Origin: Balneolales bacterium
GTDB taxonomy: Bacteria > Bacteroidota > Rhodothermia > Balneolales > Cyclonatronaceae
NCBI GenBank assembly: GCA_020832405.1
Contig: JAFIET010000020.1
Location: 1-47,619 of the forward strand
DNA length: 47,619 nt
Reading direction: 5' to 3'
Shown: one piece after another, positions 29,766 to 35,244 of the stretch
Numbering within the stretch: the first letter of the stretch is position 1
How the letters are laid out: the number at the start of each line of letters is the position of its first letter
The notes under the pieces: generated by a model
The model's database searches: none
Told to the model about the DNA's origin: nothing
Seen by the model: the letters and a program-made list of their open reading frames with translations, nothing else
Translations under genes and position numbers: made by a program

Positions 29766-30680
29766 TCAGAAAACAGAGGAACCTGTGCGGGTGGTCAGTT
29801 CTTCCAGAAACTGAATGCCCCTCACTGAGTTCCCCTTTTTATTCAGCCTCGGGCTCCACACAGCTACGCTAAACAAACCGGGGTGTACGGCTGCAATACC
29901 TCCGCCTACTCCGCTTTTGCCGGGCAGCCCGACTTTAAAGGTGAAATCACCGGACTCATCATAAAAACCGCAGGTTTGCATAATGGCATTGATGCGCTTT
30001 GTTTTGCTCACTGAAAGCACCTGCCGGCCGTCGGCCGGGGCCCGGCCATGCCCTGCGTACAGCAAAAAGGTGCGGGAAAGCTGACGGCAGTTCATTTCAA
30101 GGGCGCACTGCATAAAATAGAACCGAAGCACCCGCTCCGGTTCGTGCAAAATGTTTCCGAATGCTTTCATAAGGTTGATGAGGGCGGCATTCCGGTAGCC
30201 GTGTGAGCGCTCTGAGGCAGCAACCGTGGGGTTATACCGTATTGCCGAATCCCCCGTGAGCCCCTGCACAAATTTCAGAAAGCCGGCCTCCGGGTCCGGC
30301 AGATGCTTCATCAGCGCATCACAAACAACCATTGCACCGGAGTTGATGAGCGGGTTTCGCGGAATGCCGTTTTCGTATTCAAGCTGCACAAGCGAGTTGA
30401 AGGGCGTACCTGAAGGCTCAACACCTACCCTCTGCCATAAGGCCGTACCCTCAAGCTCAAAAGCCATCGTTAGGGCAAGCACTTTGGTGATGCTCTGTAC
30501 CGAGAACGGCGTGAGGCTGTCGCCGGCAGCAAACTCCACTCCGCTTGTTGTGCACAGATGCACGCCGAAGCAATCCGGGTTAACCTTCGCAAGCTCCGGA
30601 ATGTAGGCCGCCGACTCACCCTGCGGTGGCTGCCTCAGAAGACCTTCATAAATACCGGAAATGATTTCACCGTAATTCAT
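29766..30680 (-). CDS. glsA: Glutaminase
   Basis: 304 aa, the normal length for the bacterial glutaminase family (serine-dependent beta-lactamase-like fold) that hydrolyses L-glutamine to glutamate and ammonia. The nucleophile motif S-x-x-K is Ser63-Lys66 in 'VQSITKVLAL'. Other family segments: 'EPSGTPFNSLVQLEYENGIP', 'RNPLINSGAMVVCDAL', 'VKQ-less NPTVAASERSHGYRNAAL' and 'GLPGKSGVGGGI'. Cytoplasmic. Next to the arginine genes but divergent, so a metabolic link through glutamate and ammonia is possible but not shown. Confidence 0.93.
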   Translation of the reverse strand: MNYGEIISGIYEGLLRQPPQGESAAYIPELAKVNPDCFGVHLCTTSGVEFAAGDSLTPFSVQSITKVLALTMAFELEGTALWQRVGVEPSGTPFNSLVQLEYENGIPRNPLINSGAMVVCDALMKHLPDPEAGFLKFVQGLTGDSAIRYNPTVAASERSHGYRNAALINLMKAFGNILHEPERVLRFYFMQCALEMNCRQLSRTFLLYAGHGRAPADGRQVLSVSKTKRINAIMQTCGFYDESGDFTFKVGLPGKSGVGGGIAAVHPGLFSVAVWSPRLNKKGNSVRGIQFLEELTTRTGSSVF

Positions 30681-31164
30681 AGTGCTTACACCTGCTTAGG
30701 TTTTGGATTAAATACAACCAACAATTTTGATTGATGATTAATGATTGAATTTACGATACAATTCTAATTGATTGCCGAAATATTACTTTTGTTCAAAGTG
30801 AATCGTGAAATTTCAGAGACATGCACACCGTCCGGATTACATAAAAAGCTGCCCGGAACGGCACTTTCATCCTTGCACCCCCTCCCCGCTTAGCCGGGGC
30901 TTCTGCTTAATAAAACAGGTCTGCTTTAGCGGGTATCACCCAAAAACCGCAATCTCACAGCTGTTTATCTTAAAAGCAGCTAATCAGCCTCGATCCGGAT
31001 AAAGTCTGCGTATTTAACAAATATAAAAGCGCTTTTCCCGCTTAATATAAGGCTGTTGCCCTGCTGCTGTTACCCTAATCTGTCTTTTTTTATACGCCAG
31101 CTCTTGCCTTTTGCCGTCTCAGGGTTTAGGTTAAGAAAAGTTATTCACAACATCATTTTTTTAA
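30681..31164. other. Divergent region glsA / arg leader
   Basis: AT-rich at 30700-30800 (probable glsA promoter side). It contains a GC-rich hairpin CCCCG/CGGGG near 30884-30899 without a proper T tract, and a 12-bp palindrome AAAAGCGCTTTT at 31025-31036. No ARG-box-like pair was recognised. The promoter of the arg leader transcript should lie somewhere in 31030-31160, but I cannot fix it. Confidence 0.35.
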
Positions 31165-31266
31165 ATGTCCGCATACTTCAGCATACAACTCACCGCCGTT
31201 TCTGCATCGCCGCTCGCGATTGCCGAAGGCTCTGTTGTATTGCGCCGCCGCTGTCGTACAGGGTGA
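31165..31266 (+). CDS. Candidate arginine attenuator leader peptide (33 aa)
   Basis: ATG at 31165, stop TGA at 31264-31266. The C-terminus reads LRRRCRTG, i.e. three consecutive CGC Arg codons (31243-31251), then TGT, then CGT (31255-31257), six residues holding four Arg just before the end. The following 70 nt hold a GC-rich hairpin with nine T, and argF begins at 31416. In classical amino-acid attenuation, a ribosome stalled at scarce-amino-acid codons lets an antiterminator form. Here a GCCGG at 31272-31276 could pair with CCGGT at 31303-31307 (five pairs, one wobble) and would be covered by a ribosome resting at the stop codon. There is no Shine-Dalgarno sequence, but argF lacks one as well. 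Confidence 0.6.
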   Translation: MSAYFSIQLTAVSASPLAIAEGSVVLRRRCRTG

Positions 31267-31299
31267 GGTATGCCGGTACTTTCTGTACCCGATTTTCCC

Positions 31300-31336
31300 G
31301 CCCCGGTTAATTCACTTTAGCCGGGGCTTTTTTTTT
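31300..31336 (+). terminator. Candidate attenuator terminator upstream of argF
   Basis: A perfect 7-bp stem, GCCCCGG (31300-31306) / CCGGGGC (31321-31327), has a 14-nt loop and is followed by nine T (31328-31336). No plus-strand gene other than the 33-codon leader precedes it, so it is more likely a regulated attenuator of the arg operon than the end of another gene. An overlapping alternative hairpin, GTACAG (31256-31261) / CTGTAC (31283-31288), includes part of the last Arg codon. Confidence 0.75.
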
Positions 31337-31415
31337 GCCCGTTACCTGAAAAACCCTGCTTCAACCAACCGCAAAACAACCTTCAGCCTCAGTCATCCCC
31401 AAAAACAGCTCACAC

Positions 31416-32459
31416 ATGTCAAACCTGCTCACCATCAGCAAGTACCCGCTTGAGTTTTTGCAGCACGTGCTCGATCTCAGCGCCTATCTGGAAAAGCGGC
31501 GTAACGTGAAGCCGCTCGACGGCTCCACCATTTTGTTCTGCTTCGAGAAGCCGTCGCTGCGCACCAAGCTGGCGACCGAAGTAGCCGTGAATCAGCTGGG
31601 CGGCTCGGTGATTCACATTAGCCCGGAGGAGTTTCTGGGCGGCAAAATCCTGCACGCTACCGAAGACGCCCCCGGCATCCCGGAAGAGCGCGAAGCCCTC
31701 AAAGATACTGTCAAAAATGTGGCACAGTGGTGCGACGGCATTTTTGCGCGGGTTTTCAAACACGAAACCCTGCAGAAGCTGGCCGCCTTTTCGGACATCC
31801 CGGTCGTGAACGGGCTTTGCGACCGGCACCACCCGATGCAGGCCCTGGCCGATCTGTACACCATCCATGAGTCGTTCCGCAGCGACAAGCCGCTGCACAT
31901 CACCTTTATCGGGGATGCCAACAACGTGGCGTTTTCACTGATCGAAATCGGCCTCATTTTCGGGCACCACATGCAGTTTGCCGGCCCCATGCCCTGCTAC
32001 TGGAACCGTGAGCAGCTGGCGCACTTTGCACAGCTCGCAGCCCGGCACGGCGGCACCTTCAGCCATGGCACCGACCCGCTGCCTTTTGTGAAGCAATCGG
32101 ATGTGGTGTACACCGATGCCTTCATCTCCATGGGTCAGGAGCACGAATACGCCCAAAAACTCCGGCACTTTGAGGGCTATCAGGTAAATGAAGCGTTGTT
32201 CGGCAAGGCTCCTGACCACGCCCGCTTTATGCACTGCCTGCCGGCACACCGCGGGCTGGAAGTGACCGACGCCGTTATCGATCATCCGAATTCGCTGGTG
32301 TATCAGCAGGCCAAAAACCGCATGGTAACGGCCAAAGGCGTCTTCGCCATTCTCTGCAACCCCGAGTACCGGCTCGAAAATCCGGTGCCGGCCACGGAAC
32401 AGCATCCCTCTTCATCTTCTTCATCTTCCTTCAAAACCACTCAACTCATCGAATCATGA
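31416..32459 (+). CDS. argF: Ornithine carbamoyltransferase
   Basis: 347 aa. Transfers the carbamoyl group from carbamoyl phosphate to ornithine to give citrulline in arginine synthesis. Carbamoyl-phosphate motif 'FEKPSLRTK' (residues ~43-51) and 'HHPMQALADL'. Ornithine-side motifs 'TDAFISMGQE' and 'MHCLPAHRG' fit true ornithine transcarbamylase better than the N-acetyl or N-succinyl variants. The canonical Trp before SMG is not present ('AFISMG'). The end has an unusual serine-rich tail (about residues 330-347). The stop overlaps the argG start (ATGA), implying translational coupling. Probably controlled by the leader/terminator upstream. Confidence 0.85.
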   Translation: MSNLLTISKYPLEFLQHVLDLSAYLEKRRNVKPLDGSTILFCFEKPSLRTKLATEVAVNQLGGSVIHISPEEFLGGKILHATEDAPGIPEEREALKDTVKNVAQWCDGIFARVFKHETLQKLAAFSDIPVVNGLCDRHHPMQALADLYTIHESFRSDKPLHITFIGDANNVAFSLIEIGLIFGHHMQFAGPMPCYWNREQLAHFAQLAARHGGTFSHGTDPLPFVKQSDVVYTDAFISMGQEHEYAQKLRHFEGYQVNEALFGKAPDHARFMHCLPAHRGLEVTDAVIDHPNSLVYQQAKNRMVTAKGVFAILCNPEYRLENPVPATEQHPSSSSSSSFKTTQLIES

Positions 32460-33730
32460 TTCAGCACGCTGTCTATCACAAAGTTGCCTCGCATGAGGCC
32501 CACAAAGGAACCTTCGACACTTGTCTGCTGCTCTACTCCGGCGGACTCGACACCTCCGTGATGCTCAAATGGATTCAGGACACCTACGAATGCGAGGTAG
32601 TTGCCCTCACCGTAAATCTGGGTCAGCGGGCCGACAATATGGAAGCCATCCGCGACAAGGCCCTGAAGCTGGGCGCCAAAGAATGCATCGTGTACGACGC
32701 CCGCGACGAGTTCGCGCAGCTGTGCATGGAAGCCGTGAAAGCCAATGCCGACTATCAGGGCGGGTACGCGCTGGGGTGTCCGCTGGGCAGGGTGATGATC
32801 TCCCAAATCGCCGTAAAGATTGCCGCTGAATACGGCTGTGAGGTAATCGCACACGGCTGCACCGGCAAGGGTAACGATCAGGTGCGCTTTGAGGGCTACA
32901 TCACGACGCTGAATCCGCAGGTGAAAATCATCGCGCCGGTTCGCGAGTGGTCCATGGGCCGGGACGAGGAAATCGAATACGCCATACAGCACGGCATCCC
33001 CGTGGAGCAGACCAAAAAGGCGCCCTACTCTTATGATGAAAACATGTGGGCAAACACCGGCGAGGGTGGCGAAATCGAAGATCCGCGGCTGATTCCGCCG
33101 CTGGAGAATATCCTAAAATGGTGCAACACCCCGAAAAACGCCCCCGACGAAGAAGAGCTTGTCGTGCTCGAATTCGAGCAGGGCATGCCGGTATCGCTCA
33201 ACTATGAGGCGCTGTCCGCCACTGAAATTATTCAGCAGCTCAACGCCATCGGCGGCAAACACGCAGTGGGCTACTTCCATTTGATTGAAGACCGGATTGT
33301 GGGGCTCAAGGTGCGGGGCGTGTACGAAAATCCGGCGGCGCATCTGCTCATTCAGGCGCATAAAAACCTGGAACAGCTGGTCTCAACCCGGGAAGAAAAC
33401 GAGCTAAAAAGCTTCCTCGACACCAAATGGGCCTACCTGTGCTACGGCGCCAAATATTTTGAACCGGTGATGGATAACATCCGCGCCTTTCAGAACAAAC
33501 AAAACGAGAAAGTGAGCGGCAAGGTCACCCTGCGGCTGTACAAAGGCAACTGTGAGGTAGTGGCCCTCGACTCGCCGTTTTCGCTGTTTGATGAGCACCT
33601 TGCGACCTTCAACAAATCCGCCGATTTTAATCAGAATGCCTCGGCGGGCTTCATCGAACTGTGGAATCTGCCGCAGAAAACCGCGCATCAGGTGAGGCGC
33701 AGCAAGGTGACGGGGGTTTCCGCGCCGTAA
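32456..33730 (+). CDS. argG: Argininosuccinate synthase
   Basis: 424 aa. Joins citrulline and aspartate with ATP to argininosuccinate. The PP-loop ATP motif is 'LLYSGGLDTSVMLKW' (~residues 25-40). Other family segments: 'VALTVNLGQ', 'ALGCPLGRVMIS', 'AHGCTGKGNDQVRFE', 'KKAPYSYDENMWANTGEGGE' (readable as YSYDENMWA and EGGE) and 'RLYKGNCEVV'. The ATG overlaps the last codon of argF by 4 nt. The N-terminal 20 residues before the PP-loop are slightly longer than usual. Cytoplasmic. Confidence 0.95.
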   Translation: MIQHAVYHKVASHEAHKGTFDTCLLLYSGGLDTSVMLKWIQDTYECEVVALTVNLGQRADNMEAIRDKALKLGAKECIVYDARDEFAQLCMEAVKANADYQGGYALGCPLGRVMISQIAVKIAAEYGCEVIAHGCTGKGNDQVRFEGYITTLNPQVKIIAPVREWSMGRDEEIEYAIQHGIPVEQTKKAPYSYDENMWANTGEGGEIEDPRLIPPLENILKWCNTPKNAPDEEELVVLEFEQGMPVSLNYEALSATEIIQQLNAIGGKHAVGYFHLIEDRIVGLKVRGVYENPAAHLLIQAHKNLEQLVSTREENELKSFLDTKWAYLCYGAKYFEPVMDNIRAFQNKQNEKVSGKVTLRLYKGNCEVVALDSPFSLFDEHLATFNKSADFNQNASAGFIELWNLPQKTAHQVRRSKVTGVSAP

Positions 33731-33945: not shown

Positions 33946-35244
33946 ATGTCACTCTGGAACCCGGCTTCGGCACCGCAGCAAAATTCTGTTCAGGAAAAAA
34001 TTCACGCGTTTACGGTTGGGGAAGATTACCTCCTCGACCGGGAGCTGCTGCCGTGGGATGTGCGGGCCTCGCGGGCACACGCGCTCGGGCTGGTGAAGGC
34101 GGGCCTGCTCACCGAGGCGGAGGGCGAAGCGCTGCTGGCCGGACTGGCCGACATCCTGAAGCTTTGGGAGGCCGGGGAATTCACGGTTGAGCCGCATCAG
34201 GAGGATTGTCACACCGCTATTGAGGCCTGGCTGACCGAAAAGCTGGGTGAGGTGGGCCGGAAGATCCACACCGGGCGCTCGCGCAACGATCAGGTGCTGG
34301 CCGCAATTCGCCTGTACGAGCTGCACGCCTTGGGGGAAATCAGGCAGCGGGTGCGCACCCTGGGCGAAACCTTTCTGAAACTTGCGAAGCAGGGTGAAAA
34401 GCTGCCGATGCCCGGCTACACGCACACACAGCCCGCGATGCTCTCCTCGGCGGGGATGTGGGCAGCCTCCTTCGCAGAACTGCTGTACTTCGACCTGATA
34501 CAGCTCGGTTCCGTTGTGAGGTTGCTCGACCATTCGCCCCTGGGTACGGCGGCAGGTTTCGGGGTAAACCTGCCGCTGGAGCGGGATCTCGTGGCTAAAG
34601 AAGCGGGCTTCAGCGGGCTGCTGCTCAACCCGATTGCGGCGCAAAACTCGCGGGCCAAAATGGAAATTGCCCTGGTAAATGCGCTGGAATCGCTGGCTTC
34701 AAGTCTAAGTCAGTTCGGCACCGACTGCGTGACCTACGCGAGCAACAGCTTTGGTTTCTTCCGGCTGGATGATGCCCTCTGCACCGGCTCATCCATCATG
34801 CCGCAAAAGAAAAACCCGGACAGCGCAGAGCTGCTGCGGGCAACTGCGGGAGAGCTTACCGGCCTCGGGTCGAGCCTTCGGGCCGTGAGCCGGAACCTGG
34901 GCAGCGGCTATCACCGGGATATGCAGCTCACCAAAAAATACGCCATGCGCGCACTGGGCCTCACCCTTTCACTTCTGGAGGTGGCGCAGCTCATCGCCGA
35001 AGGCCTGTATTTCAACGCAGACAAAATGGCGGCTGCCTGCGGTCCCGAGCTGTTCGCGGCCGACCGCGCCAATGAGCTCGTACAGGGCGGCATGAGCTTC
35101 CGGGAAGCCTACTTCGAAATCAAATCGAAGCTCTCCTCGCTGGAAGTGCCCGATCTGCAGACCGCCCTCCGCGCAAAATCGCACCGCGGCGGCACCGGAA
35201 ACCCCGAACTCGAAACCCTCCGAAACCGCCTGCACGCAGATTAA
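33946..35244 (+). CDS. argH: Argininosuccinate lyase
   Basis: 432 aa of the fumarase/aspartase superfamily; splits argininosuccinate to arginine and fumarate. The motifs are 'HTGRSRNDQV' (108-117), the 'GYTHTQPA' segment with the catalytic-region His160, and the signature loop 'GSSIMPQKKNPD' with Ser282/Ser283. It follows argG on the same strand after a 215-nt gap containing an imperfect inverted repeat near 33805 (GACAGGCC...GGCCTGTC) and AT-rich repeated ATTC words. The gap may hold a second promoter. The last step of the pathway completes argF-argG-argH; other arg genes are not in the window. Confidence 0.95.
   Translation: MSLWNPASAPQQNSVQEKIHAFTVGEDYLLDRELLPWDVRASRAHALGLVKAGLLTEAEGEALLAGLADILKLWEAGEFTVEPHQEDCHTAIEAWLTEKLGEVGRKIHTGRSRNDQVLAAIRLYELHALGEIRQRVRTLGETFLKLAKQGEKLPMPGYTHTQPAMLSSAGMWAASFAELLYFDLIQLGSVVRLLDHSPLGTAAGFGVNLPLERDLVAKEAGFSGLLLNPIAAQNSRAKMEIALVNALESLASSLSQFGTDCVTYASNSFGFFRLDDALCTGSSIMPQKKNPDSAELLRATAGELTGLGSSLRAVSRNLGSGYHRDMQLTKKYAMRALGLTLSLLEVAQLIAEGLYFNADKMAAACGPELFAADRANELVQGGMSFREAYFEIKSKLSSLEVPDLQTALRAKSHRGGTGNPELETLRNRLHAD

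Follow-up and report, generated by a model that had tools for sequence, protein, structure and literature searches.

The 5' region of argF in the 47.6-kb stretch of DNA analyzed here (the window) very probably encodes a trp/his-type ribosome-mediated transcription attenuator, which would read charged arginyl-tRNA and control argFG, and probably argFGH. This reading is drawn from sequence and from modeled RNA structures: the leader open reading frame (ORF), the terminator, the conservation in relatives, the covariation of the antiterminator and the geometry of the ribosome on the leader were all computed, and read-through into argF would be expected to respond to arginine. The original prediction, that an Arg-codon leader peptide and a terminator form an attenuation switch for argFGH, is supported by conservation and by the absence of ArgR. 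Textbook attenuators respond to amino acids like His, Trp, Leu, Ile/Val, Thr or Phe, and textbooks present arginine synthesis as the model of control by the ArgR repressor. The mechanism that we propose for the argF leader is classical; the amino acid, arginine, and the phylum would be new.

The leader ORF (31165-31266, plus strand) extends from an ATG at 31165 to a TGA at 31264-31266 and encodes the peptide MSAYFSIQLTAVSASPLAIAEGSVVLRRRCRTG. As originally predicted, it comprises 33 codons, with four Arg codons among the last seven, which the sequence confirms. It thus shows the cluster of codons for one amino acid that is typical of trp/his-type attenuators. The sensor codons, identified from the sequence and from ribosome-blocked folding, are codons 27-31 (CGC CGC CGC TGT CGT; 31243-31257, plus strand). 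The leader RNA between 31150 and 31345 folds at -68.9 kcal/mol, compared to -48.3 on average for shuffled sequences (z -5.3). Upstream of the ORF, a motif match returned a putative plus-strand promoter (31104-31132), composed of TTG (31104-31106) and TAGGTT (31127-31132) separated by 20 nt. This element, which L002 and L004 as the nearest relatives also carry, resembles the -33/-7 type of Bacteroidota promoters. Transcription probably starts 5' of the leader ORF, which is likely to be translated.

The leader lies ahead of biosynthesis genes for the amino acid that it would sense, all on the plus strand: argF (ornithine carbamoyltransferase; 31416-32459), argG (argininosuccinate synthase; 32456-33730), whose first 4 bases overlap with the end of argF, and, after a gap of about 215 bases, argH (argininosuccinate lyase; 33946-35244). 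The best families for argF are ornithine carbamoyltransferases, with scores slightly under the curated cut-offs, and argH matches its profile just under the curated cut-off, with no better family. The second arginine operon of the same genome, argB-argD-argC-argJ (L117:3354-7724, contig C20), has, as a point against the attenuator reading, no upstream Arg-rich leader ORF, so that in this genome the control seems to be limited to the argFGH branch. A search of the genome for leaders with runs of His codons found none with a terminator-like T-run.

Between the leader ORF and argF lies an intrinsic terminator (31300-31336, plus strand). Positions 31300-31310 pair with 31317-31327 across a 6-nt loop, and nine T follow at 31328-31336. 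The prediction of a 7-bp GC-rich hairpin with nine T, located 33 nt after the stop codon, was right about the T-run and the distance; the stem is longer, with 11 pairs, 7 of which are GC. Since the 5' neighbor gene of the leader is on the minus strand (29766-30680), the terminator cannot belong to it. The interval between leader ORF and terminator folds into a small hairpin (GGTAC-TTTCT-GTACC; 31275-31289, plus strand), and similar hairpins are visible by eye in L002 and L004. An Rfam search of the leader returned no T-box or other cis-regulatory family at the gathering score. The cyanobacterial small RNA NsiR1 matched 31284-31335 below threshold (38 bits, with a cut-off of 39); we rejected this identity, as the match does not extend beyond the hairpin of the terminator and the spacer 5' of it, and treated it as hairpin resemblance. 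A second hairpin, CCCCGCTTAGCCGGGGCTT, at 30884-30905 has TTAGCCGGGGCTT in common with the terminator, and is possibly a decayed duplicate of it.

Arg-rich short ORFs are fairly frequent by chance in GC-rich upstream regions (11.5 out of 20 expected in our class set), and one of them could happen to lie beside an ordinary terminator or a small RNA, as the sub-threshold NsiR1 match might hint. We consider such a coincidence extremely unlikely at argF, where the terminator has no upstream plus-strand gene to serve and where the arrangement is conserved and covaries in 28 loci. The complete pattern, defined as an ORF of 10-50 codons with at least four Arg in seven codons, followed within 80 nt by a terminator, was detected at a single site when both strands of the window were searched, and only twice in total in 200 dinucleotide-shuffled windows.

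Arg-codon leader ORFs at the corresponding position, followed by a terminator, are present in all complete argF upstream regions of Balneolia (28 loci including the window, 13 after thinning). The relatives therefore keep both the Arg codons and the terminator, the loss of which had been proposed at the outset as grounds for refuting the switch. The terminator stem begins 20-52 nt 3' of the leader stop. Just before this stop, the leaders end in VVLRRRCRTG (L002), LVLRRRRP (L003) and VVLRRRCRTGRSM (L004), and those of other relatives include MKFNSQIILSNLRRRRPLGV (L005), MKFNAHTTTLSLRRRRPWGV (L034), MKFEAHNILSISLRRRRRSGV (L042) and MKFNSNYITTALSNRRSLFRV (L058). The terminator stems vary as well (GCCCCGG, GCCCGCTCA, GCCTGCTTAA and CCCGTTCAA), with the pairing always kept. 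Overall, leader peptides and stems diverge among relatives, while Arg codons, spacing and pairings are kept.

An alternative is that the leader encodes a nascent-chain arrest peptide, where the peptide together with free arginine or ornithine, and not the lack of Arg-tRNA, stalls the ribosome. Such a peptide would explain why L001, L002 and L004 have in common SASPLAI....SVVLRRRCRTG, which extends beyond the Arg codons. This likeness in the closest relatives can, however, be explained by kinship and by an RNA hairpin (CATCGCC..GCGAT), and elsewhere mainly the Arg codons are kept and the remaining peptide is unrelated. We therefore consider an arrest peptide very improbable and favor stalling due to the lack of charged Arg-tRNA.

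The layout of Arg leader and terminator is missing from the argF loci under the titles Uhrbacteria and Peregrinibacteria, and in a Cytophagaceae MAG (L054) the Arg-rich ORF is divergent and has no clear terminator. One of the loci titled Candidatus Uhrbacteria (L043) bears a T-box-like GGATGGTACCGCG stretch 5' of argF, with no Rfam match at the cut-off. Outside Bacteroidota, a locus titled Candidatus Gracilibacteria (L063:1472-1610) has, ahead of argG-argF, the peptide MNFKVLFTNLRRRP followed by a stop, a hairpin at the stop and a GCCCG..CGGGC terminator with seven T; horizontal transfer and a misplaced contig are both possible origins of this layout.

Because the RNA model derived from a MAFFT alignment captured no more than the terminator and a short helix, we examined the pairings with a permutation test. 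In this test, pairing partners are swapped between leaders, which asks whether the best partner of each RNA is its own; kinship inflates the resulting scores, and thinning corrects for this in part. The terminator pairing has a z of -8.9 across leaders. The antiterminator, in which the end of the ORF and the stop codon pair with the left arm of the terminator and its 5' flank, has a z of -6.0. When narrower regions are considered, none of 10,000 permutations is as good, and the same holds for the 13 dissimilar leaders that thinning leaves (z -4.2, 0 out of 10,000). Weak matches of an RNA model, R1, elsewhere in the genome (E at least 0.11) were taken as noise.

In the window, covariation and ribosome-blocked folding place the 5' arm of the antiterminator, GGGTGaGG, across the stop codon (region 2; 31261-31268, plus strand) and the 3' arm, CCCGCCC, in overlap with the left arm of the terminator (region 3; 31297-31303, plus strand). 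The two hairpins are thus computed to be mutually exclusive. Examples of antiterminators are GGGCGUGUGAUA with UAUCACAAGCCC, AGGCGUGUGAAAU with UUUUCACAACGCCU and GGGUGUGA with UUUUACACCC; that of the window contains one mismatch and one G-U pair and ranks with the weaker ones (0.30-0.54), a point against the model. A GCCGG:CCGGT pairing had originally been proposed as the antiterminator. These motifs are present where they were reported, but the pairing did not hold up: it shows no covariation (z -1.3, with 183 out of 2,000 permutations as good) and its probability is at most 0.01 in each ribosome state that we folded.

Two other pairings may protect the switch when the leader is not translated. 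Across leaders, the early ORF pairs with the region after the stop codon (z -4.8) and the Arg codons pair with the antiterminator arm (z -3.3). In the window, the fold pairs the early-ORF arm GCATACTTC (31171-31179, plus strand) with 31265-31273, which hides the antiterminator arm in the ribosome-free state, and the probability of the antiterminator in the free window is 0.00.

We then folded the leaders with the ribosome at different positions, cutting each RNA just 5' of the right arm of the terminator and allowing no pairing under an assumed footprint of -15 to +16 around the P site. Over the 28 leaders, the mean probability that the antiterminator captures the left arm of the terminator is 0.29 in the free RNA. 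It is 0.76, 0.67 and 0.13 with the first, second and third Arg codon in the A site, respectively, and 0.00 with the ribosome at the stop, where the antiterminator arm is covered by construction. In 24 out of 28 leaders, a ribosome at the first Arg codon raises this probability above that of the free RNA. In the window, the corresponding values are 0.00 (free), 0.30, 0.54 and 0.00 (first, second and third Arg codon) and 0.00 (stop). With this footprint, the antiterminator arm is set free when the ribosome stands at the sensor codons and is covered when it stands at the stop. The values of the window and the means both indicate that the first two CGC codons should act as sensors. These two codons are predicted to be the effective stall sites, and a stall at one of the later Arg codons would leave the operon uninduced. 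The complete leader RNA at equilibrium always favors the terminator, so that the decision must precede transcription of its right arm. Classical attenuators likewise decide before the right arm of the terminator exists.

According to the proposed mechanism, when arginine is ample the ribosome would reach the stop codon (31264-31266) and cover GGGTGaGG, the terminator (31300-31336) would form and transcription would end. When Arg-tRNA is scarce, the ribosome would stall with the first or second CGC in the A site. The stalled ribosome would break the pairings of the early ORF and of the Arg codons and leave GGGTGaGG (31261-31268) free to capture CCCGCCC (31297-31303) before the right arm of the terminator is made, allowing RNA polymerase to continue into argF. 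With no ribosome on the leader, the early-ORF pairing would mask GGGTGaGG and the terminator would form.

The argF leader resembles the trp, his, leu, thr and phe attenuators in having a leader with codons for the end product, a protector, an antiterminator, a terminator and a matching operon. Those attenuators are found in Proteobacteria, Actinobacteria and some Firmicutes, whereas the argF leader would sense arginine and belongs to Balneolota/Rhodothermia. Leader-peptide systems were previously known only from Proteobacteria and Actinobacteria, and a survey in 2010 added Firmicutes (PMC2965389). The 34-codon leader of Salmonella speF, ORF34, has consecutive Arg codons, through which low arginine is sensed by ribosome pausing (PMC6386406). 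Unlike the argF leader, it controls ornithine decarboxylase rather than an arginine biosynthesis operon, lacks an intrinsic terminator and acts through Rho, masking of the ribosome-binding site and RNase G (PMC6386406). In Staphylococcus aureus, the Arg codons of the rbfL leader peptide also sense arginine limitation; in this case, however, the codons are the rare AGA/AGG, the leader blocks translation initiation of a biofilm regulator and there is no terminator (PMC13009471). Work cited in PMC4997734 describes a leader peptide and attenuation at Pseudomonas aeruginosa carAB, a gene common to arginine and pyrimidine synthesis; as summarized there, the attenuation is linked to pyrimidines, and arginine acts transcriptionally by another route. 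In Bacteroidota, amino-acid operons of Flavobacterium psychrophilum show signs of leader-peptide attenuation, in a passage that, in contrast to the case of argF, names no arginine operon (PMC9723704). No conserved RNA element precedes the arginine operons of Actinobacteria (PMC1262725). Within the open-access literature, we found no trp/his-type attenuator for an arginine biosynthesis operon.

Our search for ArgR (PF01316), which as a control matched 9 out of 14 known genomes, found none in the genome of the window or in 60 relatives of the order Balneolales (61 genomes overall). In the class, only 1 out of 117 genomes matches (G065). We rejected it as ArgR, because its five identical frames of 127 amino acids match the DNA-binding domain and probably belong to a mobile element. 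In the sampled phylum, 43 out of 109 genomes match, mostly beside argG. The co-occurrence of an order devoid of detectable ArgR and of Arg-codon leaders at its arginine operons suggests that the two strategies can substitute for one another.

We scanned automatically for Arg-rich leader ORFs 5' of the argG operon and derived the expected counts from shuffles. Such ORFs are found in 19 out of 19 loci of family f4 of the order (2.7 expected), in 9 out of 11 loci of its other families (3.8 expected; one locus missed by the script, L095, was identified separately) and in 11 out of 20 ArgR-less loci of the phylum (4.2 expected). The ArgR-bearing loci have 2 out of 20 (4.5 expected), with several stretches too short for the scan. 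In the other orders of the class the count is 17 out of 20 (11.5 expected), which is close to chance, and the number of Arg-rich ORFs alone is weak evidence in GC-rich genomes. The argument for the class therefore leans on the constant position of the leaders and on the T-run found 47-79 nt 3' of the stop in most loci.

The arginine operon starts with argG in families f2, f3, f5 and part of f1. A leader of this type is MKLNMTYNLCNDSRRRRFRRRLERDLCKDCV, whose stop precedes a GGCAGAATCT...AGGTTCTGCC terminator; the conserved end CKDCV/CEDCV encodes a GAAGATTGTG-like sequence that, by eye, matches AATCTTC in the left half of the terminator. In f4 (L098, L102, L104, L106, L108 and L144-L157), the leaders typically read MQ..LAH...RIPRRR up to the stop and lie ahead of an acetyltransferase-like gene, the first of the arginine operon. 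Here the early ORF forms a long pairing with downstream sequence (AACATTGTTCG..CGAACAATGTT in L106) and none of the five loci that we folded has a T-tract terminator, so that control must work otherwise. A mode of this kind probably exists in the same order, and the argF leader might itself act mainly via translation, Rho-dependent termination or RNA decay, as reported for speF. We regard this as very unlikely at argF, since the strong terminator with its nine T has a left arm that overlaps the antiterminator, and both covary.

Intrinsic termination thus remains our preferred reading for argF. More tentatively, and with a likelihood that we place slightly below even, leader-peptide control by arginine may be the normal mode in Rhodothermia and in other ArgR-less Bacteroidota, where it would replace the repressor through at least three RNA architectures, including the terminator-less f4 type acting on translation, Rho or RNA stability. 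The argF leader would extend well-supported leader-peptide attenuation to Balneolota, and Arg leaders account for small ORFs that would otherwise lack annotation in many metagenome-assembled genomes. The argF leader is also a short and defined sequence suited to reporter assays. Finally, three ArgR-less loci of the phylum (L164, L167 and L174) have a conserved element, AGAACTTAG(A/G)TG.GT.CGGTTCT, just 5' of the first gene of the arginine operon. It follows Arg-rich short frames, one of which, in L164, ends in RRPLGA before the stop.
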